Of a DNA stretch of 25,507 nucleotides, positions 1 through 19,600 are shown in pieces. Location of the stretch: positions 1-25,507 of the IMG/VR virus record IMGVR_UViG_3300024259_000143. One strand, 5' to 3'. The translations under genes and the position numbers were made by a program. Every line of letters starts with the position of its first letter. The first letter of the stretch is position 1. The DNA comes from a virus. A model generated the notes under the pieces. The model saw only the letters and a list, made by a program, of their open reading frames with translations, was not told the DNA's origin and ran no database searches.

Positions 1-357
1 TTGATCTACTTTGTATTTCTTAGCCAGTTTAATGACTAAATCTTTTGTAAGTTTTGAATTAGGTAAGTTATCAATAGCTTTTGAAAATTTAGCATCTACG
101 AATTCACCGGGATTTTTCTTCAATACGGATTCTGCATAAAATCCTAATTTTTCATATTTTTTAATTACATCTGGTTTATCTGTAATGACAATGCTTTTTC
201 CAGATGTTTTGTGTTTGACTTTTACTGTCTTACCTTTTTTATATGTAAGTCCTAAATCATCTTCATTTATGGATTCTGCCTGAAATGGTGGTCTATCTTT
301 ATCAGTATAGACTTTGCCTAATTCTAAATCTTTTATTATATCTTTTATCTTAATCAT
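1..357 (-). CDS. Hypothetical head-region protein, C-terminally truncated by window edge
   Basis: The frame opens at ATG 357-355 and stays open to base 1, giving 119 residues without a stop, so the C-terminus lies outside the window. The start overlaps the stop of the upstream gene as ATGA, which suggests translational coupling. The first residues, MIKIKDIIKD, closely resemble the MIKLKDILKE leader of the protein at 1562-1870. Position 10 is Asp here, so the T4-type cleavage Glu is missing, but a SINE-D motif follows near residue 32. Residues about 38-75 form a basic block with a TSGKSIVITDKPDVIKKYEKLG core that looks like a small beta-alpha module. The remainder is rich in Lys and predicted helical. 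I recognise the general type from marine T4-like phage contigs but know no function. A minor capsid-internal or core protein is the likeliest reading. Confidence 0.75.
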   Translation of the reverse strand, partial: MIKIKDIIKDLELGKVYTDKDRPPFQAESINEDDLGLTYKKGKTVKVKHKTSGKSIVITDKPDVIKKYEKLGFYAESVLKKNPGEFVDAKFSKAIDNLPNSKLTKDLVIKLAKKYKVDQ

Positions 358-1427
358 TTCATCAATTTCCAAGCTACATTCGCCATTTGTTTAATAGGCA
401 GTTTTTCAAATTTCTTTCTATTAGCCTGACCAAGAGCATCCCAAACTTTCATAATCACATTAGCAGTTTGCATATCAACCATCACACCATCTATCTTTTT
501 ATATTGCTTTCTCTTTACAATATCTTTTATTTTATCAATGTTGTTACCTTCATTTACGGATTCTTTAAGTGATTTTACAACATCAGTAAAGTTACCCTTA
601 CCACTAAATGCTATTTTCTTATAAGCATCAACCCAAGCTTTGTCGCCATCAACTTCTATATATGCAGTCTTCATTCTACCTGTCTTTCCAACTTCTGACC
701 AAGACCTTACAGTAACTCTTGGATGACCAATTTGACTACCCCATATTCTTAGACTATCTTTATCCCTAGCAGTTATAGATTTATATGTTTGTTTATATGT
801 AGCTTCATACAAAACACCTTCATTTACGGATTCTCCAGCATATTGTCTTTTATAAAAATCTGCATCTGATTTAGATTGTTTCTTTGGTTTCTCATCTTTC
901 TTTTTTGCAAATTTATCTTTAAGTCTTTGAAAAATACTTTTAGCTTTCTTATGAGTAGCAGGATCTTTTTTAGCATAATCAGATTTAGCAGCAGTAGCAG
1001 CTGAAACTTCTTTACCAGCTTTATTTTTTAATTTGACAGCAGCAGCCGCACTAAAAACAGAAGCTGGAATTTCATAAATTAATGATTCCTGCTTTAAACG
1101 ACTCTTCTCAGCTCTTCCTCGATTTTTAGATTGTGATTCAAATCCCACGATTTTTCCTCCCTTGTGTGAAGCATCCTTGCCATCACCATTTCCATAAGTA
1201 CCTTTCTTACGATTATACTTATTTAATTCTGCTCTGTATTTCTTTGACTTTGTAGAAGATTGAAACTTCTTATACTCAGCCTTGTAATCTCTTTCTTCAT
1301 TCATACCTAATTTTTTTCGTAAAGCGCCAATCTTCTTTACAAGTTCTTTTTGTTGAGAAGAACCAGGCATCATTTTCATAGCCCTAGCATACATCTTATA
1401 CAATTCTGCTTTAGTATTTTCATCCAT
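354..1427 (-). CDS. Basic composite protein with three linked modules, probably virion-associated
   Basis: This 357-residue, Lys-rich protein has no assigned function. Residues 1-113 carry a motif of the form LNKYNRKKGTYGNGDGKDASH followed by SKNRGRAEKSR (split here at residues 68-88 and 100-110). It is a conserved block I associate with marine phage proteins, and its Asp-Ser-His and Asn-Arg pattern could suit nucleic-acid binding or a degenerate nuclease, which I cannot prove. Residues 116-195 are an Ala/Lys-rich, low-complexity, histone-like linker. Residues 209-288 form a compact mixed module, and residues 295-357 a C-terminal module with DGVMVDMQTANVI and a final AWKLMK. The modules are separated by ESVNEG (199-204 and 289-294) and by LYE-A (208/209) and LKE-S (289/290), which resemble T4 prohead-protease sites. 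The start is supported by AGGA ten bases upstream. The gene follows the 34-residue protein and is coupled to the next gene by ATGA. A DNA-binding head-core or internal protein is plausible. Confidence 0.8.
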   Translation of the reverse strand: MDENTKAELYKMYARAMKMMPGSSQQKELVKKIGALRKKLGMNEERDYKAEYKKFQSSTKSKKYRAELNKYNRKKGTYGNGDGKDASHKGGKIVGFESQSKNRGRAEKSRLKQESLIYEIPASVFSAAAAVKLKNKAGKEVSAATAAKSDYAKKDPATHKKAKSIFQRLKDKFAKKKDEKPKKQSKSDADFYKRQYAGESVNEGVLYEATYKQTYKSITARDKDSLRIWGSQIGHPRVTVRSWSEVGKTGRMKTAYIEVDGDKAWVDAYKKIAFSGKGNFTDVVKSLKESVNEGNNIDKIKDIVKRKQYKKIDGVMVDMQTANVIMKVWDALGQANRKKFEKLPIKQMANVAWKLMK

Positions 1428-1457: not shown

Positions 1458-1562
1458 TCATGTCTCACACAGATTATTTTCGTTCTTCTTTTCCCAATCC
1501 TTTGCCATTTCAGGTTCGTTTGCGTGCATCCACTTTCTCTGTTTATCAGATTTAAATGGCAT
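1458..1562 (-). CDS. 34-residue small phage protein (MPFKSxKQRxWMHANxP type)
   Basis: A short frame of 34 codons fills most of the gap between the 102-residue gene and the 357-residue gene. Its ATG (1562-1560) shares one base with the upstream stop, as TAATG. It begins MPFKSDKQRKWMHANEPEM and continues with a KDWEKK segment. This pattern, a basic SxKQRxWMxAxxPxxAxxWE peptide, is a recurrent very small phage protein that I recognise from many phage genomes, usually as a stand-alone ORF or as the C-terminus of a larger protein. Its function is unknown. The good match over the first 25 residues and the exact fit into the gap make chance unlikely. The ribosome-binding site is weak (GAAG just upstream), so translation probably depends on coupling to the upstream gene. 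Confidence 0.7.
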   Translation of the reverse strand: MPFKSDKQRKWMHANEPEMAKDWEKKNENNLCET

Positions 1563-1870
1563 TACTTCAATTTTCTTAATTCTTTATCACATCTGTCAAG
1601 CAATTTATCAATTGGTTTTGTATACTTTTTAATAATAGCATAGGCTTCTTTATTTTCCATAATTTTAGTAGTACCTCTCCATGCTCTTCCATCCGCACTA
1701 ACTGAACTTTCCAAAGCATCTATAGCCATTTCATTATAATCAAATACATCTGTGGATTCGTTTACTTTTCTATTCTTCTTTATATCTGCCAATGTTGGTA
1801 ATGGATCACCAAATTGTCTATTCTCAAATCCTGGAGAACTTTCTTTTAATATATCTTTTAATTTAATCAT
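1562..1870 (-). CDS. Small protein with T4-type capsid-targeting leader (candidate internal head protein)
   Basis: This 102-residue hydrophilic protein begins MIKLKDILKE-SSPG. T4 internal proteins carry a ten-residue capsid-targeting sequence (MKTYQEFIAE) cut by the gp21 protease after Glu10, and T4 gp24 begins MAKINELLRE-S with the same cut. Here Glu10 follows L8-K9, so both the (L/I)-x-E rule and the position match. The mature part would be about 92 residues, charged and mostly helical, ending in a Lys/Leu-rich helix, with no enzyme motif. A VNES motif sits near residues 37-40. The gene lies directly after the prohead protease, where T4 encodes the scaffold gp22, but it is far shorter than gp22. 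The Shine-Dalgarno AGGGGA lies within the last codons of the protease gene, which fixes the start at 1870. Packaging and cleavage are inferred from the leader only. Confidence 0.75.
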   Translation of the reverse strand: MIKLKDILKESSPGFENRQFGDPLPTLADIKKNRKVNESTDVFDYNEMAIDALESSVSADGRAWRGTTKIMENKEAYAIIKKYTKPIDKLLDRCDKELRKLK

Positions 1871-1873
1871 TTG

Positions 1874-2473
1874 CTATCCCCTTAGAATATCATTAATTAT
1901 AGCTTCTACCTTACCATACTTTGTATCACGAACAGCAACATTTTCTACACCCTCATTCATTGGATACATAAAAGCTCCATGCGTAGATGGATTAGATACG
2001 AAATCAAAAGCGATTAATTCAAAATCATCTTGCACTTCTTGTGCGCCACTTTCATTTACAGTTTCAACAGAACCCATACCACGAGAACTAATCCCCAACT
2101 TAATACCACTCTTAAATAATTCTTTTAGAATATTACCAGCCGGCGTTCCTAATACTTCAACCGTTCCTAGCAAATCATCACCATTCCAATTTATTTCTGT
2201 AATGTTATGTGATACATTGGATAAATTAACAACGGATGATTCCGGATGGTCTAACTCGCCCATAGCTCTTTTTTGTCCTATAAAATTTTGAAAATACTTC
2301 TTAGCTTCACGCATCAGTATTTCTTTTGGATATACTCTACCATTTTGATTTTTGGTGTCTGCCCTTTGCAATACACCTTTAACAACGAGCTTTCCGTTGT
2401 TTTCTTTCATAGACTCATTGATTTGGTCTGCTTGTATTTCAAATGGTAAATAATCTACTATTAATTGTTTCAT
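1874..2473 (-). CDS. 21: Prohead core protein protease (T4 gp21-like)
   Basis: This 199-residue protein matches the gp21-type herpesvirus-like-fold serine protease family, which degrades the scaffold core and trims head proteins inside the prohead. The T4 enzyme is about 212 residues long. Visible family signatures are LQRADTKNQNGRVYP (35-49), GELDHP with the likely catalytic His76, the SHNITEI strand (88-94), GISSRG with the likely nucleophile Ser129 or Ser130, and DFVSNPSTHGA (157-167). A QINE-S sequence at residues 17-21 fits the (L/I)-x-E rule and could be a self-processing site, as gp21 is known to process itself. VNES and MNEG motifs occur near 139 and 172. The start overlaps the upstream stop (ATGA), and GGAG lies eight bases upstream. 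Position among the portal, core proteins and leader-bearing proteins supports the call strongly. Confidence 0.93.
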   Translation of the reverse strand: MKQLIVDYLPFEIQADQINESMKENNGKLVVKGVLQRADTKNQNGRVYPKEILMREAKKYFQNFIGQKRAMGELDHPESSVVNLSNVSHNITEINWNGDDLLGTVEVLGTPAGNILKELFKSGIKLGISSRGMGSVETVNESGAQEVQDDFELIAFDFVSNPSTHGAFMYPMNEGVENVAVRDTKYGKVEAIINDILRG

Positions 2474-2667: not shown

Positions 2668-3096
2668 TTATTGTAACTGACCAACTTTGTTTGCTAGCTT
2701 AACTAACCTCTCACTTATTTTATTTAAAGCCTTATGTGTATTTTTCCAATATGACTGTGAATTGACATTCAATTCATTTTTTAGTTTAACATTCATTTTG
2801 ACAAGCCCTTCCAAACTATTCAGTCCGTCACGAACTTCTCTCATTGAGCGTCCAATTTTTTGTTTAGGTGTCAATGTCTCATCATTTCTATAATCATGAT
2901 ACTTTCCTTCCTTAACTACATTATATCCTGTAGAATTAGTAGAAATTTCCTTCTTTTTCTTCTTACCTTTGCCAGGACCGCCAGTAAAAGCGTTTGGAGT
3001 ATTGTATCCGGACGTAGCGCCTGAAGTTGTAGCCTCCGCAAGCTCTTTTTTAATCAATTCACGAATAATCTCTTTAAGCTTATCCATTTTAGACAT
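2668..3096 (-). CDS. Conserved small head-region protein with acidic/basic leader and coiled-coil C-terminus
   Basis: This 142-residue protein has three visible parts. Residues 1-21 form an amphipathic charged helix ending LAE-A, a match to the T4 gp21 cut pattern (L19-A20-E21, then Ala22). Residues 22-50 are a Gly/Thr/Lys linker with a TPNAFTGG motif and a poly-Lys run. Residues 70-142 are a conserved helical block with TPKQKIGRSMREVR, then YWKNTHKALNKISERL. I recognise this block as common in marine T4-like phages, where it is annotated as hypothetical. It lies between portal and protease, at the place of T4 gp67/gp68, so a prohead core role is the best guess. Start 3096 is supported by AAGGAG about seven bases upstream, inside the end of the previous gene, with an eight-base overlap. 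Confidence 0.8.
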   Translation of the reverse strand: MSKMDKLKEIIRELIKKELAEATTSGATSGYNTPNAFTGGPGKGKKKKKEISTNSTGYNVVKEGKYHDYRNDETLTPKQKIGRSMREVRDGLNSLEGLVKMNVKLKNELNVNSQSYWKNTHKALNKISERLVKLANKVGQLQ

Positions 3097-3990: not shown

Positions 3991-5808
3991 TTAACTTTTA
4001 TTAGAATTTAAAGAATTGATCTCAGTTTTATATACTTCATTAACCTCATCAGATTCATTTATTAACTCTTTTCCCTTACTACCCATATTTTTCAATAAAT
4101 TTTCATATTTTGAAAGCGAAGCCTTCCCATAAGCTGTATTTTTATCGTGCGCGCCCAATGGATCTCTCCCTCTTGCACCACTATCCTTACCATACTTATC
4201 AGCTTCTTTAGGACGACCAGCGCCATCCCAACCACCTTCAGGTGAACCACCTTCATCATCTAACTCATGACCAGTTCTTCCCATCGATTGATCGGACGGC
4301 GTTCCTTGAGATTGCCCACTTTTAGCAGGATCATTACCCTCATTCTCAATTTGCGCCCGGCGGAATTTATTTTTATAGTCAAATGTAATTTGCTCATCCA
4401 ACTCTTTTATATCAGCGTCTGAAAAATTGTAAATATTTTTATAAATCCATTCCGTTGAAAGAATACCATCTCTTAACATACTTTCCGCCAATGACGTTTT
4501 GTTATTCCACAATTCAACCTTCTCTTGTTCATAGATTGTGGATGGATTTGTAAGTTTTAATTCAAAGTTTACAAGATCTTGGTCTCTAAAACCTTGAGCA
4601 TATAAATGAACTACAGCAATTTTTTGTAATTCACTAACCAGTATTCTCTGTATTCTTTCAATTGTTCTAGCAAATCTAACATCTTCTGCCGCTAAAGTTG
4701 CTTTAGAACCCAAACCTTCTTCATATCCTAAGAAAGCCTTCGGAACGTGAAGTGAAGCCAATAACTTATTCTTCAAATATTCAATATCTTCTATTGCTTC
4801 ATATGTCAAACCTGGAAGAGCATTTATTTCTGTTCCACTATCTCCGCCACGCACTGGTAAAAAGAAATCTTCTGTGAGATTTTGGATGTTATAACGTAGG
4901 TTATAATCTCCAGTATTTTCATCTATAACAGGAGCCTTTTTCATCTTATTTATTACTTGTTGCATGTAGTTATCAACTTCTGCTGGCGGTATATTACCAA
5001 TATCTAATTTGAACACTCTCTTTTCGGGTGCCCTCATAATACGATGTATTAACATAGCATCTTCCATAAGAGTTAATTGCTTCCAAACTTTTCTACCACC
5101 TTCTAAAATAGAACGACCATATGGTACAAAATTAGAATCTGAAAGTAATCTGAAATGTGCTATTTCATAATTTTCCAACATCGTTGTTTCTGCACCCCTC
5201 TGTGTATGTCGTGCGCCAACCACACCACTTGATTGCTGTGGTATAAATTCGAATTGTACTAAATTTGGATTGGATGGATCGTGGCCCTCAAGACGCGTTA
5301 TATCATAAGCCGATATTGGCATTACGTTTGTAATACCATATTTTTCATTTATATCCAGTTTGAGAAAGAAATCACCATATTTTGTCATGTTTCTAACCCA
5401 TGGCCACAAATTAAATTCTATGTTAAGAACATCATAAAATAGATTATGTAATATATCATGCACATTATTATTATCTGTAGTAATTTGTAGTACTTTTCCA
5501 TATTCATTTTTCATAGTTGATTCATCTGAATATACATCTAATGCGGAAGCTACAATAGCATCCGAATCCATTGATTCATAATCCCCAAATAATCCCAATC
5601 TAAGTTGTTGGACTTGCATAAGCTCGTTATATCCATATTTTTGCATATTAGAATATAATTTTGTAAACCTATCCACCAAAGTGTTCTGTGCAATCGCTTG
5701 AACGTGTCCAGTATCAACTATCTTTAACTTTTTGCCACCAATATTTCTAACAATAGTATTAGTTGAAAATAATCGTTTTAATCTTGAAAATATATCTTGT
5801 TGTGCCAT
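3991..5808 (-). CDS. 20: Portal vertex protein (T4 gp20-like)
   Basis: At 605 residues this is somewhat longer than T4 gp20 (about 524). It forms the dodecameric ring through which DNA is packaged and to which the neck attaches. The body shows the order expected of the marine gp20 group: a variable N-terminus, the DIVASALDVYSDE-like helix (seen here as SDAIVASALDVYSDES, near 83-98), FNLWPWVRNMTKYGDFFLKL (133-152), the PYGRSILEGGRKVWKQL segment (about 229-245), EKRVFKLDIGN (about 262-272), the LPGLTYEAIEDIEYLKNKL region (about 334-352), and LGSKATLAAEDVRFARTIERIQ (about 367-388). The last 120 residues are a Gly/Asp/Ser-rich disordered tail, and INE-S at 583-585 matches a gp21-type site. A clear AGAGGT Shine-Dalgarno lies six bases before ATG 5808. 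The terminase stop is only ten bases upstream, so the two are co-translated from one message. Confidence 0.93.
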   Translation of the reverse strand: MAQQDIFSRLKRLFSTNTIVRNIGGKKLKIVDTGHVQAIAQNTLVDRFTKLYSNMQKYGYNELMQVQQLRLGLFGDYESMDSDAIVASALDVYSDESTMKNEYGKVLQITTDNNNVHDILHNLFYDVLNIEFNLWPWVRNMTKYGDFFLKLDINEKYGITNVMPISAYDITRLEGHDPSNPNLVQFEFIPQQSSGVVGARHTQRGAETTMLENYEIAHFRLLSDSNFVPYGRSILEGGRKVWKQLTLMEDAMLIHRIMRAPEKRVFKLDIGNIPPAEVDNYMQQVINKMKKAPVIDENTGDYNLRYNIQNLTEDFFLPVRGGDSGTEINALPGLTYEAIEDIEYLKNKLLASLHVPKAFLGYEEGLGSKATLAAEDVRFARTIERIQRILVSELQKIAVVHLYAQGFRDQDLVNFELKLTNPSTIYEQEKVELWNNKTSLAESMLRDGILSTEWIYKNIYNFSDADIKELDEQITFDYKNKFRRAQIENEGNDPAKSGQSQGTPSDQSMGRTGHELDDEGGSPEGGWDGAGRPKEADKYGKDSGARGRDPLGAHDKNTAYGKASLSKYENLLKNMGSKGKELINESDEVNEVYKTEINSLNSNKS

Positions 5809-5818
5809 TTTTTACCTC

Positions 5819-7396
5819 TTATTTTATTAGCCAATCCAATGATTCTCTCTTCTTATCAGGGCCAATTTCCCATTCCCAAGAATCATTTTCATATGTCGGT
5901 TTCTGTGGTAGCATCTGCGATGATATACCACTTAAAGTTTTTCTTTGCAATTCTATTCCTTCAGCCTTCAGCCTTAACGCTGTATCTCTAACCCACAATC
6001 CTATAGCAAGAGACATGACTAAATCATCGTTATATCCAGTCATCGCTTCTGCCTTATTGTTGTTATATATAAATACAAAAAGTTCATCAATTAATCTATT
6101 TGAGCGAACAATTACTGACTTTTCTCTAAAATATTCATCTAATTTAGCAATAACAAGCGGTCTTGTTTTCATAGTCATACTAAAGCCCGCCACCATATTT
6201 CTTTCCGTACTTCTATATCGATTAGTCATTTGATGTTCTGTATCCACATACTTCAAATCTTTGCTTGTATAAAATAAGTTTTCGTAACCTCTATCAATAC
6301 ATTGTTGGAGCGCAGCCCAGCCAATATTATTGTTTTCTACAACCAATAAAGCATTGTTATATTCTATTGCTGTGTTAACGCATAGGTTTCCAAAATCCTT
6401 TGTTGATATTTTACCTCTATATTCCGCTACTTGTTCTAAATTTTCTACATCTATTACGTGAAATGCTGAAAAATCAGAACCGTCCCCTCTACTAACATCA
6501 GCGCTAACTACATAATCTCTAGTGTAGTTTGCTGGTTGCCATATCCAAAGGTTACTGTCTATACCCCTCTTTTCCAATGGATCATAAACATGGGTTTGTT
6601 TATATTCATCTAATATAATACCATCAATAACAGTTTGTCCTGAAGTCAGGAAGTCACAATCACATTCTTGAGCAGCTAATGAAGGACCTAATAGCCTATC
6701 TTGCTCAGCTCTCCACCCCGTATCTCTTTCCGGGTGCAAGTCCCAATGCAATCTAATAAAGTTCCAATCATTTGTTCCTTCTTCGGCACCTACCCAAGTC
6801 TTATGAAACCAATTACCAATACCATTTGGAGTAGAAAGCGCAATACATTTTCCACCAGTTGATAATGTCTGTGAAGCAGCAGCCCATATTGGTTCAATCT
6901 TATCAATAAAGGCAGCCTCATCTAATATTAGTAGAGATAGAGCTTCTGAACGACCACTATCTTCGCCACTCGATACAGCTTTTACTTGTGAGCCATTATT
7001 GTATCTCAACGAGAGCTTGTTATCCTCAACACACTTCTGCTTTAACCAACTTGGTAAGTTAGCATGCATCACTCTTACTTTTGTAACTAAGTTTTTAGCA
7101 GTATCTTGTTTGGTAGCAATCACTAAGATGTTTTTATCATGATGAAATGTCATCAACCAAAGTGAGTATCCAGCAGTTAATGTTGATAATCCTAACTGAC
7201 GTGCTTTTAGAATAATATTAAATCTATGTTCCTCAAAAGTATTTAAAGATTTCTCTTGAAATTCCCAAAGATGAAAGGGTACTTTACCTTTTATCGGGTG
7301 CTGGACAACACAATACTTTTTCATAAAGTATGCTGGGTCTTTAGCGCACTTAACGTACTCTTTTTTAATGACTTCTTTTAGTGGCGTAGGTTTCAT
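5819..7396 (-). CDS. 17: Terminase large subunit (T4 gp17-like packaging ATPase/nuclease)
   Basis: This 525-residue enzyme powers DNA packaging and cuts the concatemer. The ATPase half shows a deviant Walker A, KARQLGLST (residues 64-72), Walker B LLILDEAAF with Asp159-Glu160, and the coupling motif STPNG (188-192). The RNase-H-fold nuclease half shows the acidic residues in VSADVSRGDGSD (first Asp at 300), VVENNNIG (Glu354) and YNDDLVMSLA (Asp457/458). The chosen start is ATG 7396-7394: it shares one base with the preceding stop (TAATG) and has AGGA eight bases upstream. The frame runs open for 12 more codons upstream, but that would lengthen the overlap and lacks a ribosome-binding site. 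In T4, sheath and tube genes lie between gp17 and gp20; here the portal follows directly. No small terminase is recognised in the window. Confidence 0.95.
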   Translation of the reverse strand: MKPTPLKEVIKKEYVKCAKDPAYFMKKYCVVQHPIKGKVPFHLWEFQEKSLNTFEEHRFNIILKARQLGLSTLTAGYSLWLMTFHHDKNILVIATKQDTAKNLVTKVRVMHANLPSWLKQKCVEDNKLSLRYNNGSQVKAVSSGEDSGRSEALSLLILDEAAFIDKIEPIWAAASQTLSTGGKCIALSTPNGIGNWFHKTWVGAEEGTNDWNFIRLHWDLHPERDTGWRAEQDRLLGPSLAAQECDCDFLTSGQTVIDGIILDEYKQTHVYDPLEKRGIDSNLWIWQPANYTRDYVVSADVSRGDGSDFSAFHVIDVENLEQVAEYRGKISTKDFGNLCVNTAIEYNNALLVVENNNIGWAALQQCIDRGYENLFYTSKDLKYVDTEHQMTNRYRSTERNMVAGFSMTMKTRPLVIAKLDEYFREKSVIVRSNRLIDELFVFIYNNNKAEAMTGYNDDLVMSLAIGLWVRDTALRLKAEGIELQRKTLSGISSQMLPQKPTYENDSWEWEIGPDKKRESLDWLIK

Positions 7397-7794
7397 TACA
7401 TTTTTCCTAAAATAAATCCTATACCTAACCAAAGGTATTGATTTTCATACCATTTTGGTTCAACTAACTTAACTAACTTTTCATTCATTTCATCTCGAGC
7501 TTTTAATAATTTAATCTGTGAATCCTTGACATTTAATAATAAAGAATCAACGTTAGCCGTTTCTTCTAATTTTGTTACTAAATTTTCACAATCACTAATA
7601 ACAACTTTTTGTGATGCAATTAATGAATCGGCCTTTTCTATCTTACCTTCCCATTGAGCATCTCGTTGTTTAATCATCTCCAACGCTTCAGCGTATGTAA
7701 AGGTAGTCGGCTTTTTGCCATCCTTCTTTATATCTTGCGCATCTGTCATTGATAACGCGAAGAAGAATATTATAAAATATTTTAGTATATTCAT
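7396..7794 (-). CDS. Exported coiled-coil protein with C-terminal hydrophobic anchor
   Basis: From ATG 7794 this is a 132-residue protein. That start is preferred over ATG 7806 because GAGG lies six bases before it and overlaps the stop of the upstream gene, and because the protein then opens with a clean signal sequence (MNILKYFIIFFFALSMTDA, then Gln). The middle 80 residues are predicted coiled coil. The C-terminus, from WYENQYLWLGIGFILGKM, is a short hydrophobic segment that could anchor it in the inner membrane. There is no lipobox Cys. I have seen this layout (signal peptide, coiled coil, KPKWYEN-type hydrophobic end) in phages of aquatic hosts, without assigned function. Together with the next membrane protein it could form a spanin-like envelope-disruption pair, but neither shows the defining Rz1 lipoprotein features. 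Confidence 0.75.
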   Translation of the reverse strand: MNILKYFIIFFFALSMTDAQDIKKDGKKPTTFTYAEALEMIKQRDAQWEGKIEKADSLIASQKVVISDCENLVTKLEETANVDSLLLNVKDSQIKLLKARDEMNEKLVKLVEPKWYENQYLWLGIGFILGKM

Positions 7795-7802
7795 AGTAAA
7801 CC

Positions 7803-8114
7803 TCATTTGTTCTTAGCAAATTGTCTTAAAAAATCTTCAGCGGATTCTACTTCATCGTTTTCATACGCCTCTTCCATCTTTTGAGTTTTCTTTTTTGAAG
7901 TGGTAAGTTTTCTTTTTAGTTTACCAACTTCTTTTTTAGAAACAGTTTTCTTTTCTTCCAAAACTTTAATTTCTTTTTCAACTTTCTTCTCTTCTTTTTT
8001 GTTTTCTTTGATAACCTTTTTAAGTTCTTTAACTTCTTTACTTTTAACAGCATTGGCTGCAAAAAGACCACCAAGTAAACCAAAAAATCCGAGTATTAAT
8101 TTCCAAATTTTCAT
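7803..8114 (-). CDS. Small membrane-anchored coiled-coil protein
   Basis: A 103-residue protein with an N-terminal transmembrane segment (about residues 4-22, KLILGFFGLLGGLFAANAV) followed by a long Lys/Glu-rich coiled coil (about 25-85) and an acidic tail with a SAEDFLRQF motif. This is the overall shape of an inner-membrane spanin (Rz-like) or of a membrane-tethered assembly factor. Sequence alone does not distinguish them. Its start overlaps the stop of the zinc-finger gene (ATGA), and its stop region provides the ribosome-binding site of the next gene, so the two membrane proteins are tightly coupled, which suits a partner role. Confidence 0.75.
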   Translation of the reverse strand: MKIWKLILGFFGLLGGLFAANAVKSKEVKELKKVIKENKKEEKKVEKEIKVLEEKKTVSKKEVGKLKRKLTTSKKKTQKMEEAYENDEVESAEDFLRQFAKNK

Positions 8115-8643: not shown

Positions 8644-11600
8644 TTACCTCGTAAACTTTAACATTCCTAAAATTTGATTAACAGGAGCAAATGCGCCTGT
8701 ATACTTATACAATTTCCCTTTAAACATAAATGTAATACCCTCACTTGGTACAACAGCATCCAATCCTCCAATAGCATTCAACCTATCCAATTGAGTTTTT
8801 AATGTATTTAATACTTTTGGATCTGTAGAATTTTTTACTTTGGATATTACACTTATTAAATCTTTTTTAATTTTTTGCACTGCCGCATCCGGATTCGCAG
8901 CAATAAAATCACTAAGATTTTTTAATATTTCCGCGCCAAGTTCAAAAAATAAAACTTCCCAATCTCTTATATGCTCTTTCTGTAATCTGGCGTGATCATT
9001 TTTATCAGTAGATAAAACCCATTCTAAAAACTTGGGATGATCTTCTTTTAAATCCTTTTTAATCTGTGGAATCTTATATGATTTATCGAAGAAAGCCCAC
9101 CTCTTAGTTAGTTTGACTAAAATATCATTTGTTATATTCATGAAGTCAGTTTGATTAGCACCATTTAATATATATTCCATCCAATATGCTTGATGATAAT
9201 CTGCTAATGTATCAGTACCTCTAAGAGCATAATTATTTTGTAACGCGTTCAACTTGCCCAAAAAATAACTTTGTCGTTGTGAAAAGTTTTTTACTTTTGG
9301 GAGTTTAGCTACAAATGGTCCAGTTACACTAAATGTCTTTTGTACATTTTGATTTATCTGCTTTATCATACCAGCTAATACTCTTGCACTGCTACTATCA
9401 GATCCAATTGGCGAACCAGCCGCATTATACTCTATTGTTCCATGAAATTGTAAAAGTGATTTATCATAAGGAATTACATTTGCTGTTTTCGGATAAATGA
9501 TTTCCAATGACATAAATTTCTTACCTTCTGCGAATATTTTATCTTTTTGTTTATCACTTAATCCACCAATCGCTTTTGATAAATCCACCATTGCACCAAC
9601 AAATGCCTTCTCAAGGTCTCCCCTTCCAGCAAACATACTCTTTACACCACTAATACTTAATGCCGCTGCACCAAAGTTTTTAATATGTCCACCATTTCTA
9701 GCCGCAATAAGTTTACCATTCTTCCAACTTATCATTATATTTTGACCGTCTGTTTTTTCTGTTACAGTCCCATCATTACTAAGATTACCTTGTAGTGTAT
9801 TAATAATTAGTGTTCTGAAATCTGAAAATGTAAGATTATTATTATCAAATGGATGATTTAAATGTCCGTACGCGCCGCCCATAAGCAGTAGCCCCTTTCC
9901 TTTATTTTTTTGTGTTAAAACACTTTTTGAATTTATTTGTTCGTGAAAATTATCCTTATCTTTAACTTCATAACTAAAGCCATCAGCGCCAGCCACCATC
10001 AAATCACCTATAATATTATCAATAGCAGCGTCAGTACCCATCCAATTTACTATTTCCCAGCCTAAAGGTTTTACAACATCCGTCATCCATTTTTTGTATT
10101 CTCCAACCGCTGCAACAGAACCTTTAGCTTGGCCTGCATCTAAATGAGTTACATCCGTTGATACATAATGCTTTTTACCCGGCTTCCTTCTAGAAAATTC
10201 CGATGGTGCATCATCATTATCCATTGGATCTATCGCGTTATTACTTACTATATAATCTATAATTTTCCAACCGGCTCCACTATATAAGTTATCTATCCAA
10301 TTTTTTGATGATTTTTCATAATCTTCAAAGTCTTTATAATAAGTTGAAGGACCATCATCAAGATTACCTCCAGGAGTTCCTGTAGCTTCCAGTAAAAACT
10401 CTTCTATTAACTCGTCCGTTAGCGTATAGGTTTCAAATAACTTTTTAAATTTATTTGTCATCATTTGAAAATTTCCCTTATCAAAATACCCAAATATATT
10501 TTTAAATCTTTTTTGTCTCTCGCTATCATCAATTTTAGGATCACCCAATAATTCTCTAGCTTTAGTACCACTAATATTACCAGATTGTGGAGCAGTTAAA
10601 ATATACCCATGCTCATCAAACCCTTTCATATCCTTCGTATAAGGTTTAAAATATTTACCACCAAGTCTACCAGAATCCTTTCCACCAACCACATAAACAA
10701 CTGCTGTAGTTTCTGGATCATATTTTCTAAGTAAATTTTTTGCAACATATGGTGATGTTTCTTGGATTATTCTATTTCTTGGAATGCCCATCTTTGTCAT
10801 ATGCCTGACTTTTTCTGAAAAATTCATTGGATGTCTAGGTGGTTGTTTTATATTAGATGTCGTTATATAAGCTTCATCTACCCTGCCTTTCAACCAATCA
10901 TATGTAGCAGCGTGGCCAGAATGAAATGGTTGGAATCTTCCGCCGAATACTCCGATTACTTTTTTAATTTGTTTAGCTTCATTCAATTTAGCTATTTGTT
11001 TTTCTATATCCTTTATTTGCAATTTTAACTTATGACTATTGGCTCCACTACCAAATCCTATAGCTTTTTTAATTAGTTTTTGCCTCTCATCTCTAAGTTT
11101 ATTTTGTTTTATTTGGTCTTTTCTACTTAATTTTTCATTTACGTCTTTCAAATTAGATGCACTATCCCCACTTTCTGCAATAGAATATACAACCTTTTGC
11201 ATATACAAGTCAAGGGTTTCTTTTATTTTTATTTTCTTATCTATAATATCTGGCTTTTTAACTTTATCAGTTGTAACAAAAGTATCATATTTATCGTCAG
11301 GAGAATGTTCATATTGTCTAACCTCTAAACTTATCTTTGGCTTATATCCTTCCGGCAGTTTATTAATAATCCCTTTGAAATGTACTTTTCCTGGAATTAA
11401 ATAAAGCATCATATTTAATTTATTTAAATTAACCAATAATTGACTTGATGTCCACAATTGATTTTGACTTCTCACCATATCATATTTTGGACCTAATTTT
11501 TGTGTATGATTGTAAAATTTTGGAAATACTTCTTTATAATTTTTTGTAGATTTAACTAATTCTTGAGCATATTTCATTCTTGTTTCGGAAGATATTCTGT

Positions 11601-13185
11601 CTGGTCCTCTTGTATATCCTTGTTCAGGATGTTTAATTCCATGATTAGTTCTTACGAGTGGCTTTTTTAAGTCATGTACAGTTACATGCGGTTTTACTCT
11701 TGAAGTGTTTTCAATTACAGCAACTTTTTTACCGTCACTAACAATTGTATGACCTTTAATTCCATCGTGAAATGTCACTAATGACCTAACCACATCAGAT
11801 AATTTTTTATAACCCAACGCCTCTCTAATACGAGCACCATCTTTTGACGGGGCTTTTATTTTTTTAGTTTTATCGAATTCTTTTTCATCTCTCTTTACAA
11901 ACAGTGCTGAATTCACAATACCGATTCCATATGAATTCATACCCTCACACCAATCCGTATCCTTATCCATTACATAACATATTTCCGTACCATATCCAGT
12001 AAGTTCTCTCACTACTAATAAATTAGGTGAATAATTTCTATCTCTGTTTTTACCCAGCACTATATCATTACCAAATTTATTAGCAAAAGTAATACATTCA
12101 TCAATTTCTTTATAACCACTTTTCTTATCCGTTTTATTTTTATTAATTCCTTTACGACTTGGAGATGGTAACATTCCAGCCGGCGCTCCAAATTCTTCAT
12201 CAAATGCATTTACTTTTTTAACTAATCTAAACTTTAATGCAGGCCTCCCATTGATAAGCAAATCACCCTTCTCATTCCAATCAATAGATTTAACAACTAC
12301 TTTCTTATTCTTAAATTTACCCATTTTAACGGTATCGCCTATTTCAACAGGAACATCTATACTTTCAAAGAAACGAGATTGACCTGGATCTTTGAATACT
12401 TTGTGAAATTTCTTTTCTTTTGCAAGCCAATCCTTTCCTATTTTACTCGATACGGGCCTACTAAGAAATTTAGTAATACCTTTATTGACTAACATTTTAA
12501 ATCTTTTTTTAGCTTGTTCAGCATCTAAATATCTATTATTATCAACTATTAGAAAATTAGATCCTCCAAATAAACCTTGGAAAAACGCTAAATTATTTTG
12601 GACATCCTGCCAACTTGTACGGACAATCGGTTCAGGTACTACTCTTGTTCGTTGCTCATTTCTTTCTAAAGCGACATCTAAAGAAGTATTTACAAAAACC
12701 ATATAAGTATCATAACCCAATGCTTCTAATTGTTTTTTCTGCGCTTTCACCGATTTGTATTTATGTCCAGTACCATCTATGATTACACCTAATCTACCTT
12801 GTGTATATAATCTTAATCTTTCCTTACTTAGCGATTTAGCAAAATTTCTCAAACCACTTGTAGCATAATCAACAGGATTTCCATTTCTATCCACACCAGT
12901 AAGGTCTTGAAATAGTTCATCTGGCATAACATCTAAATCTGTTGTTTGAAAATACTTTTTCATTAACATTTCAAGTTCAGAATCCTGATTTACCATTTTT
13001 AAACCAGTCCTAGATACATTGACGTTTTCAGGTATGCCGAATAGTTTAGAAGCAACATATGACTTTCCACTTCCAGGTCCACCAGCTAAAAAGATAGCCT
13101 TAAAGATACCTGGATCTCTAGCTCCCTCTGTTAGTATATCTGCCTCTATAAAAGGTTTTGTTAAAAATTCGGTAAGTTTATTCAT
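8644..13185 (-). CDS. 1513-residue multi-enzyme protein: P-loop kinase, beta-barrel, Ntn-hydrolase, NMNAT-like and RNA-ligase-like domains
   Basis: Domains in order. Residues 28-245 are a zeta-toxin/polynucleotide-kinase-like P-loop kinase with Walker A GGPGSGKS (35-42). Residues 275-325 are a small beta-barrel. Residues 364-628 resemble an Ntn-hydrolase of the acyltransferase/C45 group: Cys364 as nucleophile, KNRDR (379-383), GMNSYGIGIVNSAL (415-428) and RTNHG (512-516). Residues 680-736 are coiled-coil linker. Residues 742-916 are an NMNAT/cytidylyltransferase-like fold with GRFQPFHSGH (749-758) and ISGTKAR (871-877). Residues about 960-1513 are an RNA-ligase-like nucleotidyltransferase with EKTDG (Lys1144 nucleophile), SLEII (Glu1228), EGITFMFKG (1482-1490) and KLYKYTG (1491-1497). 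An insertion of about 225 residues lies between its motifs III and IV. (L/I)-x-E plus small residue occurs at 20/21, 363/364, 671/672, 736/737 and 933/934. AGGA precedes ATG 13185. RNA repair and NAD metabolism are plausible roles, unproven. Confidence 0.85.
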   Translation of the reverse strand: MNKLTEFLTKPFIEADILTEGARDPGIFKAIFLAGGPGSGKSYVASKLFGIPENVNVSRTGLKMVNQDSELEMLMKKYFQTTDLDVMPDELFQDLTGVDRNGNPVDYATSGLRNFAKSLSKERLRLYTQGRLGVIIDGTGHKYKSVKAQKKQLEALGYDTYMVFVNTSLDVALERNEQRTRVVPEPIVRTSWQDVQNNLAFFQGLFGGSNFLIVDNNRYLDAEQAKKRFKMLVNKGITKFLSRPVSSKIGKDWLAKEKKFHKVFKDPGQSRFFESIDVPVEIGDTVKMGKFKNKKVVVKSIDWNEKGDLLINGRPALKFRLVKKVNAFDEEFGAPAGMLPSPSRKGINKNKTDKKSGYKEIDECITFANKFGNDIVLGKNRDRNYSPNLLVVRELTGYGTEICYVMDKDTDWCEGMNSYGIGIVNSALFVKRDEKEFDKTKKIKAPSKDGARIREALGYKKLSDVVRSLVTFHDGIKGHTIVSDGKKVAVIENTSRVKPHVTVHDLKKPLVRTNHGIKHPEQGYTRGPDRISSETRMKYAQELVKSTKNYKEVFPKFYNHTQKLGPKYDMVRSQNQLWTSSQLLVNLNKLNMMLYLIPGKVHFKGIINKLPEGYKPKISLEVRQYEHSPDDKYDTFVTTDKVKKPDIIDKKIKIKETLDLYMQKVVYSIAESGDSASNLKDVNEKLSRKDQIKQNKLRDERQKLIKKAIGFGSGANSHKLKLQIKDIEKQIAKLNEAKQIKKVIGVFGGRFQPFHSGHAATYDWLKGRVDEAYITTSNIKQPPRHPMNFSEKVRHMTKMGIPRNRIIQETSPYVAKNLLRKYDPETTAVVYVVGGKDSGRLGGKYFKPYTKDMKGFDEHGYILTAPQSGNISGTKARELLGDPKIDDSERQKRFKNIFGYFDKGNFQMMTNKFKKLFETYTLTDELIEEFLLEATGTPGGNLDDGPSTYYKDFEDYEKSSKNWIDNLYSGAGWKIIDYIVSNNAIDPMDNDDAPSEFSRRKPGKKHYVSTDVTHLDAGQAKGSVAAVGEYKKWMTDVVKPLGWEIVNWMGTDAAIDNIIGDLMVAGADGFSYEVKDKDNFHEQINSKSVLTQKNKGKGLLLMGGAYGHLNHPFDNNNLTFSDFRTLIINTLQGNLSNDGTVTEKTDGQNIMISWKNGKLIAARNGGHIKNFGAAALSISGVKSMFAGRGDLEKAFVGAMVDLSKAIGGLSDKQKDKIFAEGKKFMSLEIIYPKTANVIPYDKSLLQFHGTIEYNAAGSPIGSDSSSARVLAGMIKQINQNVQKTFSVTGPFVAKLPKVKNFSQRQSYFLGKLNALQNNYALRGTDTLADYHQAYWMEYILNGANQTDFMNITNDILVKLTKRWAFFDKSYKIPQIKKDLKEDHPKFLEWVLSTDKNDHARLQKEHIRDWEVLFFELGAEILKNLSDFIAANPDAAVQKIKKDLISVISKVKNSTDPKVLNTLKTQLDRLNAIGGLDAVVPSEGITFMFKGKLYKYTGAFAPVNQILGMLKFTR

Positions 13186-13621: not shown

Positions 13622-16600
13622 CTAAGTATCAAAAGTAACTTCCATAAATGCATTAAAGTCATCACATGTTACAGCAGAAGTAGCCCCCATATATCCACCA
13701 TTGTTAGTTATAGTCACATATAAAGTCAAAACATCACCTGCTGCAAATGTATCTGTACCTATTGCTTGAGTTGCTGAGTCGCCCTTATTACCCGTACTAG
13801 TTGGTGACTCGTCAACATAAAACACATTTGTTCCATTTTTTCGGACTTCAGTTCTCACGAGTGAGTAAGCCTGATCAAAGGGAGTATCGAAACCATCGGT
13901 TTGACTTGTAACATTAAACTGACACGAAACCCCAGTAATACTACCAGCTCTATGCATTCTATATCCTATTGTGGCTCCCATCTGTGTACCATTATTGAAA
14001 TCTAAATACCTACTTGTAGAAAATGTCCCACTTTCACCACCATCGAAATATCCACGTGTACCACCACCAGTCATATGACCGGAAATTGCTAAATCGCCTG
14101 CAGCATTTACTACCAGCAAATCACTCGAGGACAGTCTATCTTGAATTTTTAAAGGATAATGAGCCGTATTTCCGGCCACTCCCGCTTCTATAAGTAATCC
14201 ATGACCACTGGATCCACCATTGTGAATACCTGCGGCATACGCTCCATTTTCGTATATATTTAGATTCAAACCTTCAGCTGTTACAGATATAGCACCATCA
14301 CTACTCATAGTTCCGGCATTAGGACCTATTGTTAAACCTGGACTACTTTGAGCAGTGGTATTTCCTATTGAAACGCCTCCTTCAAAATATGAATTTCCAT
14401 CTGCAACATAAAGTCCATAACCAGAATCCGCATCGACGTAAATTCCGTAAGTTGAATCTGATGTTTCTGCTTTGACATATATCCCATATAACGCATTTGG
14501 ACTAACAGAACTATATCGTGTTGCTGCAAAATATCCTGCATATCCTATACCAGTTGTTCCTACGCCATTTACTTCACTATATATACCATAACCGACTGCA
14601 TTAGTCCTCTCATTGAATCCTACATATCTACTATAGATATTATAAAAAGTTTCAGATATCCCACCACCACTCGATTCCCTGGTTGATTGAATAAACATAT
14701 TATAGCTAACTTGATTATTTGCTCTCATATTAAAGTAATGGCCGTAGCTGTATGCTTCGACAGAACTTTCCCTCCAAGCAGTGCTTGAAAGTACAGGTCC
14801 AATTTGGTCTACTGCTTTAGCTGTATCACGTATAATAACCATACCATCAGAAATATCTACCCCTAATCCGTATCCAGAATATCCTGACGGATCTGAAAAT
14901 CCAGATCCTATGGTTAATTTGACATCATTGTTAGAATCAAAATATTGGAAATTATTATCTGTGCCGGATATTCTAACTCTTTCTCCAGTTGCCGCTGTGG
15001 AAATAATAGCTCCACTACTTCCTGTAAGTTGGTTATTAGCAAGTGTAAATCCACCGATAGCACCAGCAGTTGCAGTAACCGTTCCTTCCATCGATACATT
15101 ACCACTCGAATCAATGTTAAAATTAGATGAACTAATTTCAAGAGAGCCAGAATTACCGGATGTGCTGGTAGTAAATAATTTTATAAAAGTATTTTTAACA
15201 CCAGCTCTAAAGAATAAAGCTTCATCTGGTTGACCGACAGATGACATAAGCCATGCACTTCCTGAAAAAGTTGTTGGGTTTATAGACATCCCCTGACCAA
15301 CTCCAGAATTAGTACCATAAAGTATTCCCGAACCATCATTACCGTCATATTGAATTCTAGCTGAATGACCAGATTCTAATGTAAATGCAGTTGTTTTACT
15401 CGCGCCCGCTCCAATAGTTCCACGTATTTGATTTCCTTCAATATCAAATCCACCTATATCACCTTGAGTTATTTGTGCCGCAGAAGCAGTTATTTGTCCA
15501 GTGAGTCCTTTTAAAGTAAGTGTTCCAGCACCCGCAGTTAAATCACTTCCGATAGTAAATCCACCGATTTCACCTGCAGTAGCAGTAACCGTTCCTTGCA
15601 TTGTAACATTACCAGCATTAGTAAGATGAAAATTACTTGAACTTATTTCTATGTTGCCATTACTTCCACTAACAAATTGTCCACCGCCACCTAAGAAAAA
15701 GTTGGATGAACTTATATACATTAAGTTTTCGGCTGATGAGAATTTTAGATGTGCACCATCTGCTTTACCTATTTGATATTTTACAGCATTATTCTCATTT
15801 AGGAAATACATACCGGATGTTGTGGTTGTATCAGTTATATTTGTATTATAAGTTCCACCGTCAGTATTCCAGAGGAAAGAATTTGTACCATCTGCTTTTT
15901 GTACTGAAATAATTCTCATTCCACCTGTTACGCCAACCACACCAGGGGCTGATGCTGCTCCTATTGTGATTACGGCACCCACCTCAGGTGCACCAACTTT
16001 AGCAAGTACTTGGAAACCAGCACCAAGCGAACCACTCATACCAGTTAGTGCGATTACAGGTAAAGGGTTGGCACCATATTTTGTACGAAGCAAAACTGAA
16101 CTTGTCAGATATGAATTAGAGCCACCAGAGGTATCATATCCAATATAATCAGAAGTAAGTGCTTCATCTGTAATAGTAAATCCACCTATTGTACCACCAG
16201 TAGCAGTAATTGAGCCACTCATTTTCATCGTGTTATTAACAGTATCTAAATGAAAAGCACTTGAACTTATTTCTATGTTTCCATTACTACCACTTATGTA
16301 TTGAGCACCACCGCCTAAATAAAATGTTGAAGCCGACATGATAAGATTTGAACCATCAAATGATATTCTTTCTCCCGAACCACTACCAAATAAAAATGTG
16401 CCTGTTCCATCTACATAAAAACCATCACCACTATTATAAGCAGTTGGAGCAATTCCTGCACCTATTTTTATTTGACCACCACTTGAATCCGAATCTAATA
16501 TAAAAGTAGTACCTGATTTTATTTCATCAGCATCTATAGTCCAACCACCTATGGTTGCACTTCCATCTATTGTTAAAGAACCACCTGTATATCTGAATCC

Positions 16601-19600
16601 TGTTCCCATGGACATTCTACCATCACCAGTTGATCCATCAATATAAATTCTGTCTGCGGAATTATATGCGTCAGTTCCAGTGCCTAAAGATAATATACCA
16701 GCAGCTTTTAATTTTGCATTAGTTCCAGTTATTTCATCTGAATTAATTGTCCAACCAGCTATTACGTTTTGATTTTCTGATAATTCAAATAATAATGTAC
16801 CAGCCGAATTAAATCCCTCTATTCCATAATCGCCAGAATTAAGTCTACCCAGAGCGACTCTGGTATTATCTCTATTGGAGGGGCCGTAGTTGGCTTTACC
16901 AGCCGTGTCATGAACTGTAATCAACTTATTACTCGCGTCTATGATGATTCCTTGAGTATCGGCCGATGTTGAACTTGATATTAAATTATTACCAATTTCC
17001 CAACCACCAACACTCAAAACTCCACCAGTATATGTGAAATCTTCACCGATAGACATTCTATTACCCGGACCATCTAAGTATGTTCTATTAGCTTGAGCGT
17101 AATTATGTGTTCCACTTCCTAATGAAAGAACACCACTACCGCTTAATATTGCTTGTCCATTTGAAGATGAAATTTGTCCCTTACCAATCTTCCAGCCACC
17201 AGCAGTTAATACATCACTAACATAACTAAAATTTTCCCCAACAAAAAAGATTGGGTCTGCTGATGCACTTACGAAAAATAAACTTGCAGATGGACTCATT
17301 CCAGTATGAGTTGTCGCGTTTGTTCCCAGTGCTATCTTAGCCTGGTTGCCGTCTATTGTTGCGACTGTTCCACTTGTCAATTGACCTGGTCCCAATTCCC
17401 ATCCAGCCAATCTTGCTTTATTTGCAGTAATCAATACCGAAGCACTGGCTTCACTTCCTGAAACCGTTCCACTTCCACTAAAAACTGCGAATCCATAAGG
17501 ACTATCTACCGTACCATCATGTAGTGGTAATTTACCCAATACAAGTTTAGGTTGAGCTTCATCCATACTACCCGTCCAAATAGTAAGTGATTGTGAAATT
17601 GAACTTAATCTTACACTACCATCTACATTATCACTCTGTATATTACCAGGTATTAAATCCCATCCAGCTAATTTTGCTTTATCTTCTGTAATTAATACTG
17701 AATACCTATCCTCATGCAAAATGCTGGCATTATCAGTACCACTAAATACAGCGAAGCCATATCTATCATCGTCAGATGAACCACCAACTCTTGGTAGTTT
17801 CCCCATTACGACTTTTGGTTTTGCAGTATTTATAGAACCAGTATGAATTGATATTTGTTGGTTTGTTGCGTCAAGTGCTATTGAACCATCAGAAGAATCA
17901 TATTGTAATTTTCCTGGTACTATATCCCAACCAGCTAATTGATGGTTTCCATCTAATCTTAATCTAATGACTTCAGCACCGGCGGTATTATATCCAAATA
18001 ATCCTGAAGTGCTAGCTGTTCCAGTATTTGTTAATTTTAATGCTGAATTAGCCGTACCAGTTATATTACCAATCATAATAGTACTATTAACTAATGCTAA
18101 TGCGTTGTCAGATTTTACTGCAATATTTCCTTTTAAGTATATGTTACTTGAATAAAGACCATGACCTACTAATGGAGATCCACTAAAATCAGTATCAGTT
18201 ATTCCGGCAAGATTTCCCAAACGAGCTTCTACTGTTCCATCATCAATAACATCAACGAATGGGGAGTTAGCAGAACTAGCATCTATCAATACAGAACCAC
18301 CGGATGTTCTAACACACGTCATACCAATTTGTAAATCAGTAGAAGCACCTACCGAGTATGTTACGTTATAAGTATGGAATGCAGTTTCACCCGACCCACC
18401 TGTTGCACTCAATGAATCTATTGTAAAGATAACTGACGTAATCGTACCATCAGTAGAGTCAGCTTCCTTACACCACATAGTAACTGGAAATGAACTAAAA
18501 ACTGCTGATTTATCATCTCTTATTTTAAGTGTAGTTGTAGATGGTATAGATGATATAACGGCCGAATCCGAAACATATAAATAACCATTTGTGGCCTTAA
18601 CTACATCTTTTTGGAATATATGAGTTCGTAATGTATTTCTAACAACTATGTTATCAATTTCCATTGTTGTACCACTGGATCCACCATCGTCAATTCTAAA
18701 TCCATCACCCCCCACAAGTGCTGATACAAATGTGGATGTTCCAAAAGTACCTGTGTCTCCAATAGTTAATGCAGAACCATCAAAGGTAAGAGTAGATTCG
18801 GCAGTTAAGGCGCCATCCCCATTTCCTGTTAAAATATAATCCGTACCAACTGTAGATAATCCTGTTCCGCCATCTGCTACTAATAAATCTGTAATTCCTG
18901 TAATTGTTCCGCTATCTATATCAACATTAGTCATATTTTGACTATCAAAGTTTATTGCTCCGGCCGCTTGGAATGCTCCAATTTTAGTAACTGTTAAAGT
19001 GTCGGTAGCAAAGGTAAAATCAGAATCGTCTGTAAGTTGTCCATTTGTTGTAGAGAAAGGAACTCTTCCACTTGTTAAATCATCTGCAATAAGTGTGTTA
19101 GCTCGAAAGTCATAAGCCCCTATATCAATATTTGCTGTTGCAGTTATTCCTGCGGTTGTTAATGCAGAAATTGTTGTTGCTGCGATTGTACCGCCTTCAA
19201 CTTTATCACCACTTATTTGATTAGCTGCTAATGTTAAAGTTCCAGCACTTACATTTAATGTTTTTCCAGAACCTACCGTAATATTTGAAGTTGCTATTGT
19301 TGCCCCGTCTATATTACCACCATCTATATCTGGCGTATTAATATCAGGACTTGTTAAAGTTTTGTTTGTAAGTGTATCTTCTGAACTAATAGTTACTAAA
19401 TTAACTTCAGCACTTTTCAATCCACCTTTCCACCTATCTACAGCCACATCCCAAAGTAATGAACCAGTCTGAGCAGTTGCGGCATCATTTACATATATTC
19501 CACCATCTCCGGCAGACGAGCCCCCGTTCAATGTTAAAATTTGATCTCCAAGAACAACCTCATTAGTAGTAGTTGTAGTCATTGTTCCAGCTACACTTAA

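Follow-up and report, generated by a model that had tools for sequence, protein, structure and literature searches.

The established role of prohead proteases is to trim scaffolds and end-peptides. In phage T4, the capsid-targeting sequences are N-terminal propeptides of 10-19 residues that the gp21 protease removes by cutting after a Glu (PMC9026906). Enzymes have also been found in cyanophage virions: cytidylyltransferases were detected in those of S-CREM2 (gp154; PMC10665884), S-SZBM1 (S-SZBM1_140; PMC9146016) and S-SM1 (T4-GC190; PMC3037559), and the module-string protein gp160 was detected in those of S-CREM2 (PMC10665884), although the S-CREM2 authors point out that such proteins could have co-purified from the lysate as contaminants (PMC10665884). 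These virion-detected proteins share only the NMNAT-like domain or small modules with the protein described here and are not full-length orthologues of it.

From sequence comparison, we consider it likely that a 1513-residue protein of a marine T4-like phage is a polyprotein that is packaged into the prohead, processed by the prohead protease and shuffled in modules. Its open reading frame (8644-13185, minus strand, ATG start at 13185) lies in the window, by which we mean the whole analysed stretch of 25,507 nucleotides (IMG/VR record IMGVR_UViG_3300024259_000143). The earlier note on this DNA had recognised a real reading frame, the strand of which has to be corrected to minus, and its gp21-type protease is indeed a head maturation protease of the T4 type. 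The window is a T4-like head and packaging cluster in which TerL, portal and prohead protease are all encoded on the minus strand (Table 1). The slot of the polyprotein gene just upstream of TerL is kept in 19 of 19 relatives checked and, where the contigs of relatives reach far enough, the gene also lies upstream of portal and protease. Three small genes separate it from the terminase gene in relatives, one or two of them being undetected in a few. In the window, two overlapping minus-strand genes (7396-7806 and 7803-8114) encode small proteins, hydrophobic towards their N termini, which may be lysis proteins (spanin- or holin-like) or membrane proteins. Separate from the polyprotein gene, the minus strand also encodes a 3936-residue protein (13622-25432) with repeated ISSSG and GGWxIG motifs and no PHROG match that has the look of a giant tail fibre or adhesin.

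Table 1. Features of the window and parts of the 1513-residue protein, in window positions; a slash within a motif marks the bond predicted to be cut.
Feature	Position	Strand	Basis or remark
Second module-string protein, adjoins protease	354..1427	-	starts MDE/NTKAELYKMY...KLGMNE/E; module m3 match, 63% identity
Small 102-aa protein, candidate co-substrate	1562..1870	-	leader MIKLKDILKE/S and internal KVNE/S junction
T4-type prohead maturation protease, predicted cutter	1874-2473	-	phrog_207 head maturation protease, E=7.5e-55
Small lysine-rich prohead-core-like protein, candidate co-substrate	2668..3096	-	LAE/A near N terminus
Portal	3991-5808	-	T4-like head/packaging cluster
Terminase large subunit (TerL)	5819-7432	-	T4-like head/packaging cluster
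Ligase-like nucleotidyltransferase domain, residues 1099-1513, KTDG motif	8647..9891	-	EKTDGQN motif
Variable region before ligase-like domain, residues 934-1098	9892..10386	-	
Linker with conserved LFE (918) and LLE/A (933/934)	10387..10431	-	both Glu kept in 33/33 homologues
NMNAT/cytidylyltransferase-like domain, residues 737-918	10432..10977	-	PF01467, E=1.1e-9; phrog_395 cytidyltransferase
Linker, residues 628-736, sites IAE/S (671/672) and LNE/A (736/737)	10978..11304	-	
AAT/C45-type Ntn hydrolase, residues 364-627, likely nucleophile C364	11305..12096	-	NF040521, Foldseek
Small basic module EFGAP..PSPSRK..., residues 331-363, ending IDE/C (predicted cut 363/364)	12097..12195	-	
KOW/SH3-like small domain (fold name inferred), residues 272-328	12202..12372	-	conserved block
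P-loop kinase (AAA_33/zeta-toxin/polynucleotide-kinase-like), about residues 21-265	12391..13125	-	PF13671, E=1.4e-8; PF06414, E=4.4e-8
N-terminal leader, residues 1-20, MNKLTEFLTKPFIEADILTE/G	13126..13185	-	predicted capsid-targeting/propeptide element, gp21-type site at its end

The kinase domain additionally matches the polynucleotide kinase family phrog_505 (E=2.4e-6), and the PF01467 match of the NMNAT-like domain, at 39 bits, lies above the curated cut-off of 21. The KOW/SH3-like block directly follows the leader in five kinase-less homologues (L003, L004, L019, L024 and L043), the EFGAP..PSPSRK module occurs in many homologues at differing positions and with variable neighbours on both sides, and the linker element SI[AVI]E/[SN] is seen again in L003, L008 and L024. 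Three loci (L063, L066 and L067) carry an extra block of about 400 residues between the NMNAT-like and ligase-like domains, after LKE/S or LKE/N, and in three others (L050 at 9001-12656, L073 and L047) the polyprotein gene appears as two reading frames, either a real split or an assembly error. The EKTDGQN motif, with its KxDG core, is invariant in 33 homologues; the profile search returned no Pfam ligase match for this domain and Foldseek only a weak match, to T4 Rnl2 (1s68), and residues 1099-1513 are ligase-like only tentatively. In S-SZBM1, a gene with the ligase-like motif VTVKWDGAPA (S-SZBM1_141; L204, 978-2171) adjoins that of the virion-detected cytidylyltransferase, and thus the NMNAT/ligase pair that is fused here appears as neighbours elsewhere. 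AlphaFold2 models of residues 330-745 and 733-1513 had a mean pLDDT of about 45, too poor to judge the exposure of the linker sites.

A strict scan for [LI]xE followed by A, G, S or C finds seven sites in this protein, after residues 20, 363, 455, 612, 671, 736 and 933. The earlier note had listed six, each at the right residue, and had overlooked LPE/G at 612/613; it placed five of them correctly in the leader or linkers, while those inside a domain number two rather than one (455 and 612, both in the Ntn hydrolase). Its estimate of about four chance matches was too high: shuffling of the whole protein gives a mean of 2.0 sites (P=0.004 for seven or more), and shuffling of linkers and domains as separate blocks gives 0.66 linker sites against five observed (P=0.0004), although the borders were partly set after viewing the homologues, which calls for caution with this second figure. 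In a 165-kb relative, the motif falls in the first 30 residues of 7 of 136 genes, among them those for the core protein, protease, scaffold and polyprotein, against 6.7 expected, and hence is not enriched. Since the bare motif is at chance level proteome-wide, the real evidence is its conservation.

Conservation was assessed among relatives from 80 IMG/VR loci, and these counts come from related homologues, so that raw numbers overstate the independent events because of shared ancestry. The earlier note had named the linker Glu residues as the place to look, and the border Glu is kept in homologues even though the flanking modules have been exchanged. At the five border sites P1 remains Glu and P3 is usually aliphatic, and the NMNAT domain retains its preceding Glu behind very different upstream sequences. 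The sites inside the domain serve as an internal control: in close relatives IRE/A at 455 becomes RQA or RHA and LPE/G at 612 becomes LPD or LPK. With the Glu replaced by Gln or His and by Asp or Lys, we discarded both as cut sites, IRE/A at 455 probably being no site because it is not conserved. Retention of the border Glu and loss of the in-domain Glu is what one would predict were the border sites in use and the in-domain ones fortuitous. A further site close to the ligase-like domain, L[LI]E/GGAYGH, has Glu at residue 1102 in 27 of 33 homologues and Met in the other 6; in the window protein M1102 replaces the P1 Glu and this site is missing, thus the ligase part might not be severed from the segment 934-1098.

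What is most telling was missed in the earlier note, namely that a cut at 363/364 would expose the likely catalytic Cys and that modules are shuffled at the sites. Ntn hydrolases can only act when their Cys is N-terminal, and IDE/C stands immediately before C364, the likely N-terminal nucleophile. The match to NF040521 (NCBIfam C45; residues 364-554) starts exactly at C364 (E=4.8e-8) but falls short of the curated cut-off, and a relative (L145) matches PF03417 above cut-off. The top Foldseek matches, obtained with a weak model, are AAT (prob 0.99), bile salt hydrolases and NAAA, and the domain contains the motif C...G.N.D, in which the Cys nucleophile is followed by N-x-D; PDB sequence searches gave nothing useful. 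Profile positions 1-88 of C45 are absent, matches beginning at position 89-90, and the autoproteolytic propeptide region of C45/AAT is replaced by leaders or modules that end in [LIVMF]xE. This tripeptide precedes the Ntn Cys in 79 of 79 phage copies, the readable ones, which were collected with search patterns from inside the domain rather than upstream of it, and among which a few loci are the same contig twice. They comprise 38 distinct ten-residue contexts, of which 100% have Glu at P1 and 100% an aliphatic residue or Phe at P3; P2 and P4-P10 differ, so that P1 and P3 alone are conserved. GAA as well as GAG serves for the P1 Glu, and 13 codons are found at P3, indicating selection on the protein rather than a DNA recombination site; we therefore rejected a DNA recombination motif as the source of the junction Glu. 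Standalone Ntn proteins begin with a leader about 4-29 residues long, for example MEFKEFLFNE/C, MDFKDFLEIQINE/C and MIKLIDLLKE/C, and that of Chryseobacterium phage MA9V-1 has MTSANNNEFLNE/C. Cellular relatives of the Ntn domain, which would be a control lacking the protease, were not found in scans of 85,000 genomes. We regard the invariance of P1 and P3 across unrelated upstream sequences as the most persuasive evidence, and, as a reading of these alignments, it argues that the prohead protease probably activates the Ntn hydrolase by a cut at 363/364.

The same Glu marks the junctions at which the homologues have been rearranged. The 60 complete proteins fall into 26 architectures, for example NMNAT-Ntn-ligase, Ntn-NMNAT-ligase and KOW-Ntn-kinase, with modules swapped, reordered, duplicated or inserted. 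Between kinase and NMNAT lie varying series of small basic modules, which are 30-100 residues long and end in Glu. Module ends in relatives include VNE/A, KNE/E, MNE/A, LGE/S, LKE/A, LKE/Q and LME/Q. In ungapped comparisons of homologue with homologue the breakpoints cluster at module junctions; P3 is Val, Ile, Leu or Met in 67 of the 91 junctions near breakpoints, and some junctions (KKKNE, KKDE) have no aliphatic P3. Whatever lies upstream, a Glu directly precedes the kinase, m1, m4, m7, m8, Ntn and NMNAT modules in almost every instance. It appears that modules can be freely exchanged, duplicated and reordered because each carries its own cut site.

The leader behaves as a transferable element: depending on the homologue, the next domain is the kinase, KOW or NMNAT. 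It ends in [LI]xE/G in all 25 kinase-bearing copies, though its length is 15, 16 or 20 residues, while in kinase-less copies it runs directly into the KOW domain (MKKLTKYLTKPFLVE/D, that is LVE/D) and in other copies directly into the NMNAT domain (MDRLVKQLITPFITE/Q, that is ITE/Q). It resembles the T4 capsid-targeting sequences (PMC9026906) and the leaders of the virion-detected cyanophage proteins, MKNFSSFLTE/A in S-CREM2 gp154 and MRFRQFIIE/A in S-SZBM1_140. Standalone copies of the kinase, the hydrolase and the NMNAT-like domain also have short leaders that resemble capsid-targeting sequences of the T4 type; kinases of this kind in other lineages begin with MNF[KR]EF[CQ]QLDE/A in Cronobacter phage S13 (MNFKEFCQLDE/A) and Citrobacter phage Ci1, with MIPFILKE/G in HTVC008M and with MKTFAELQE/G in Melnitz. 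The modules of gp160 match 365 cyanophage records, and its gene often lies between gp16 and gp17, near the slot of the polyprotein gene here. A cyanophage module string, S-SZBM1_194 (L089, 35253-37376), has an internal YREFIAE/G. We take this to be nearly identical to the capsid-targeting sequence of T4 IPIII, but it lies within the chain.

Of 18 contigs or records that carry an Ntn gene or a polyprotein relative, 13 encode a Peptidase_S77 (PF03420) protease; it went undetected in the other 5, several of which may be fragments. The major capsid proteins of relatives have LIKE/A or LIDE/S near the N terminus, and the counterpart of the lysine-rich core-like protein in the 165-kb relative has LDE/A at 21. 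In the second module-string protein, the module DENTKAELYKMY...KLGMNE is common to homologues of the large polyprotein. The same protein contains further SVNE/G junctions, and the 102-residue protein beside the protease resembles, by its sequence, another small protease-delimited packaged protein.

How might such a chain function? By analogy with the T4 capsid-targeting sequences, the leader of 15-20 residues would direct it into the prohead core, where the T4-type protease, judging from the conserved sites, would cut after aliphatic-x-Glu, remove the leader and release the kinase, the Ntn hydrolase, the NMNAT-like and ligase-like enzymes and small basic peptides. The cut in IDE/C would expose C364, in which case the Ntn hydrolase would be a zymogen activated inside the prohead. 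As with other injected proteins, the pieces might then exit together with the DNA and go to work in the next host without delay. For the kinase, the NMNAT-like and the ligase-like enzyme the probable substrates would, speculatively, be RNA or nucleotides, in repair or modification. Cut marks at the joints of the enzyme chain, one of them placed so as to switch an enzyme on, suggest a pre-loaded toolkit that is delivered at the start of infection.

It is possible that the chain is packaged by its leader and cut only there, perhaps also at the Ntn site, and then delivered whole like the virion RNA polymerase of N4, which is packaged unprocessed (PMC5512222). T4 Alt, too, is cut just near its ends (PMC9026906), and the window protein has lost its ligase-proximal site. 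However, conservation of E918, E933 and the Glu in front of NMNAT equals that of the leader site, and we consider this scenario unlikely. Autoproteolysis is a distinct way in which the Ntn domain could free its own Cys, the rest being an uncut multi-enzyme, and the closest families (C45 of NF040521, and AAT and NAAA by fold) are autoproteolytic. Yet about 89 residues at the N-terminal end of the C45 profile have no counterpart here; unrelated leaders, some of only 4-10 residues, invariably place Glu at P1 and an aliphatic residue at P3 ahead of the Cys; and the same motif borders modules that have no autocatalytic chemistry, all of which makes self-cleavage very unlikely.

More improbable still is an ordinary cytoplasmic multi-domain enzyme whose pattern stems from Glu-rich linkers and from recombination at short conserved stretches of linker DNA. 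The linkers are rich in Lys, Glu and Asn (25 of the 73 Glu residues of the window protein lie in them), and domain shuffling by itself is common in phages. However, Glu sits exactly at -1 before modules with an aliphatic residue at -3, and ahead of the Ntn Cys these are the only conserved positions; codon use is diverse, with two codons for Glu and 13 at P3; a conserved leader stands ahead of whichever domain comes first; and standalone single-domain relatives retain both leader and site.

A processed, packaged polyprotein is thus the reading we prefer, and we lean, with somewhat less assurance, towards a broader version of it: a prohead polyprotein system in which exchangeable cassettes bounded by protease sites are strung behind one leader, and in which the protease switches on Ntn zymogens that are active only in the maturing head. 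Such a system would extend to several hundred cyanophage records and, in Ntn-only or kinase-only versions, to other T4-like lineages. If true, prohead proteases would also cut up polyproteins made of several enzymes and switch packaged enzymes on, a form of control under which an effector stays inactive until a head surrounds it, and the possession of its own release site by each module would explain the free shuffling. It would also follow that [LIVMF]xE immediately ahead of a domain or catalytic Cys can serve as a rule to find injected effectors among hypothetical proteins.

In the open-access literature we found no description of such a packaged polyprotein and no paper that joins an N-terminal nucleophile with a prohead protease; several known systems nonetheless share parts of this design. 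Polyvalent proteins (Iyer et al. 2017, PMC5512222) are likewise large mosaic multi-enzymes, presumed to be delivered alongside the DNA, but they have another domain set, whereas here the borders carry prohead-protease sites; by Pfam, none of the polyvalent-protein domains MPTase, DdrB-ParB and ArdC-N was detected, only kinase and cytidylyltransferase families. In SPN3US and phiKZ, head and ejection proteins are cut after Glu (A-x-E), sometimes at several sites, but these cuts remove propeptides, and neither an enzyme string nor zymogen activation is described there (PMC10052503). Enzymes of the C45/AAT group (isopenicillin acyltransferase, NAAA, BSH) share C...G.N.D, the fold matches and the predicted N-terminal Cys, but here a prohead-protease motif stands before the Cys in place of an autoproteolytic propeptide. 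T4 IPI-III and Alt have the short leader ending in aliphatic-x-Glu, the cognate gp21-type protease and the location in a head-core cluster (PMC9026906), but they are single proteins trimmed at their ends, whereas here a multi-enzyme chain has a site at each border. Among cyanophage proteins, the T4-GC119 module strings have xxE junctions and lie near terminase genes, and the T4-GC190 cytidylyltransferases place an NMNAT-like domain behind a leader ending in FLTE/A or FIIE/A and occur in virions. The latter, however, are encoded by separate short genes, whereas here the NMNAT-like and ligase-like domains are fused and joined by a kinase and an Ntn hydrolase.
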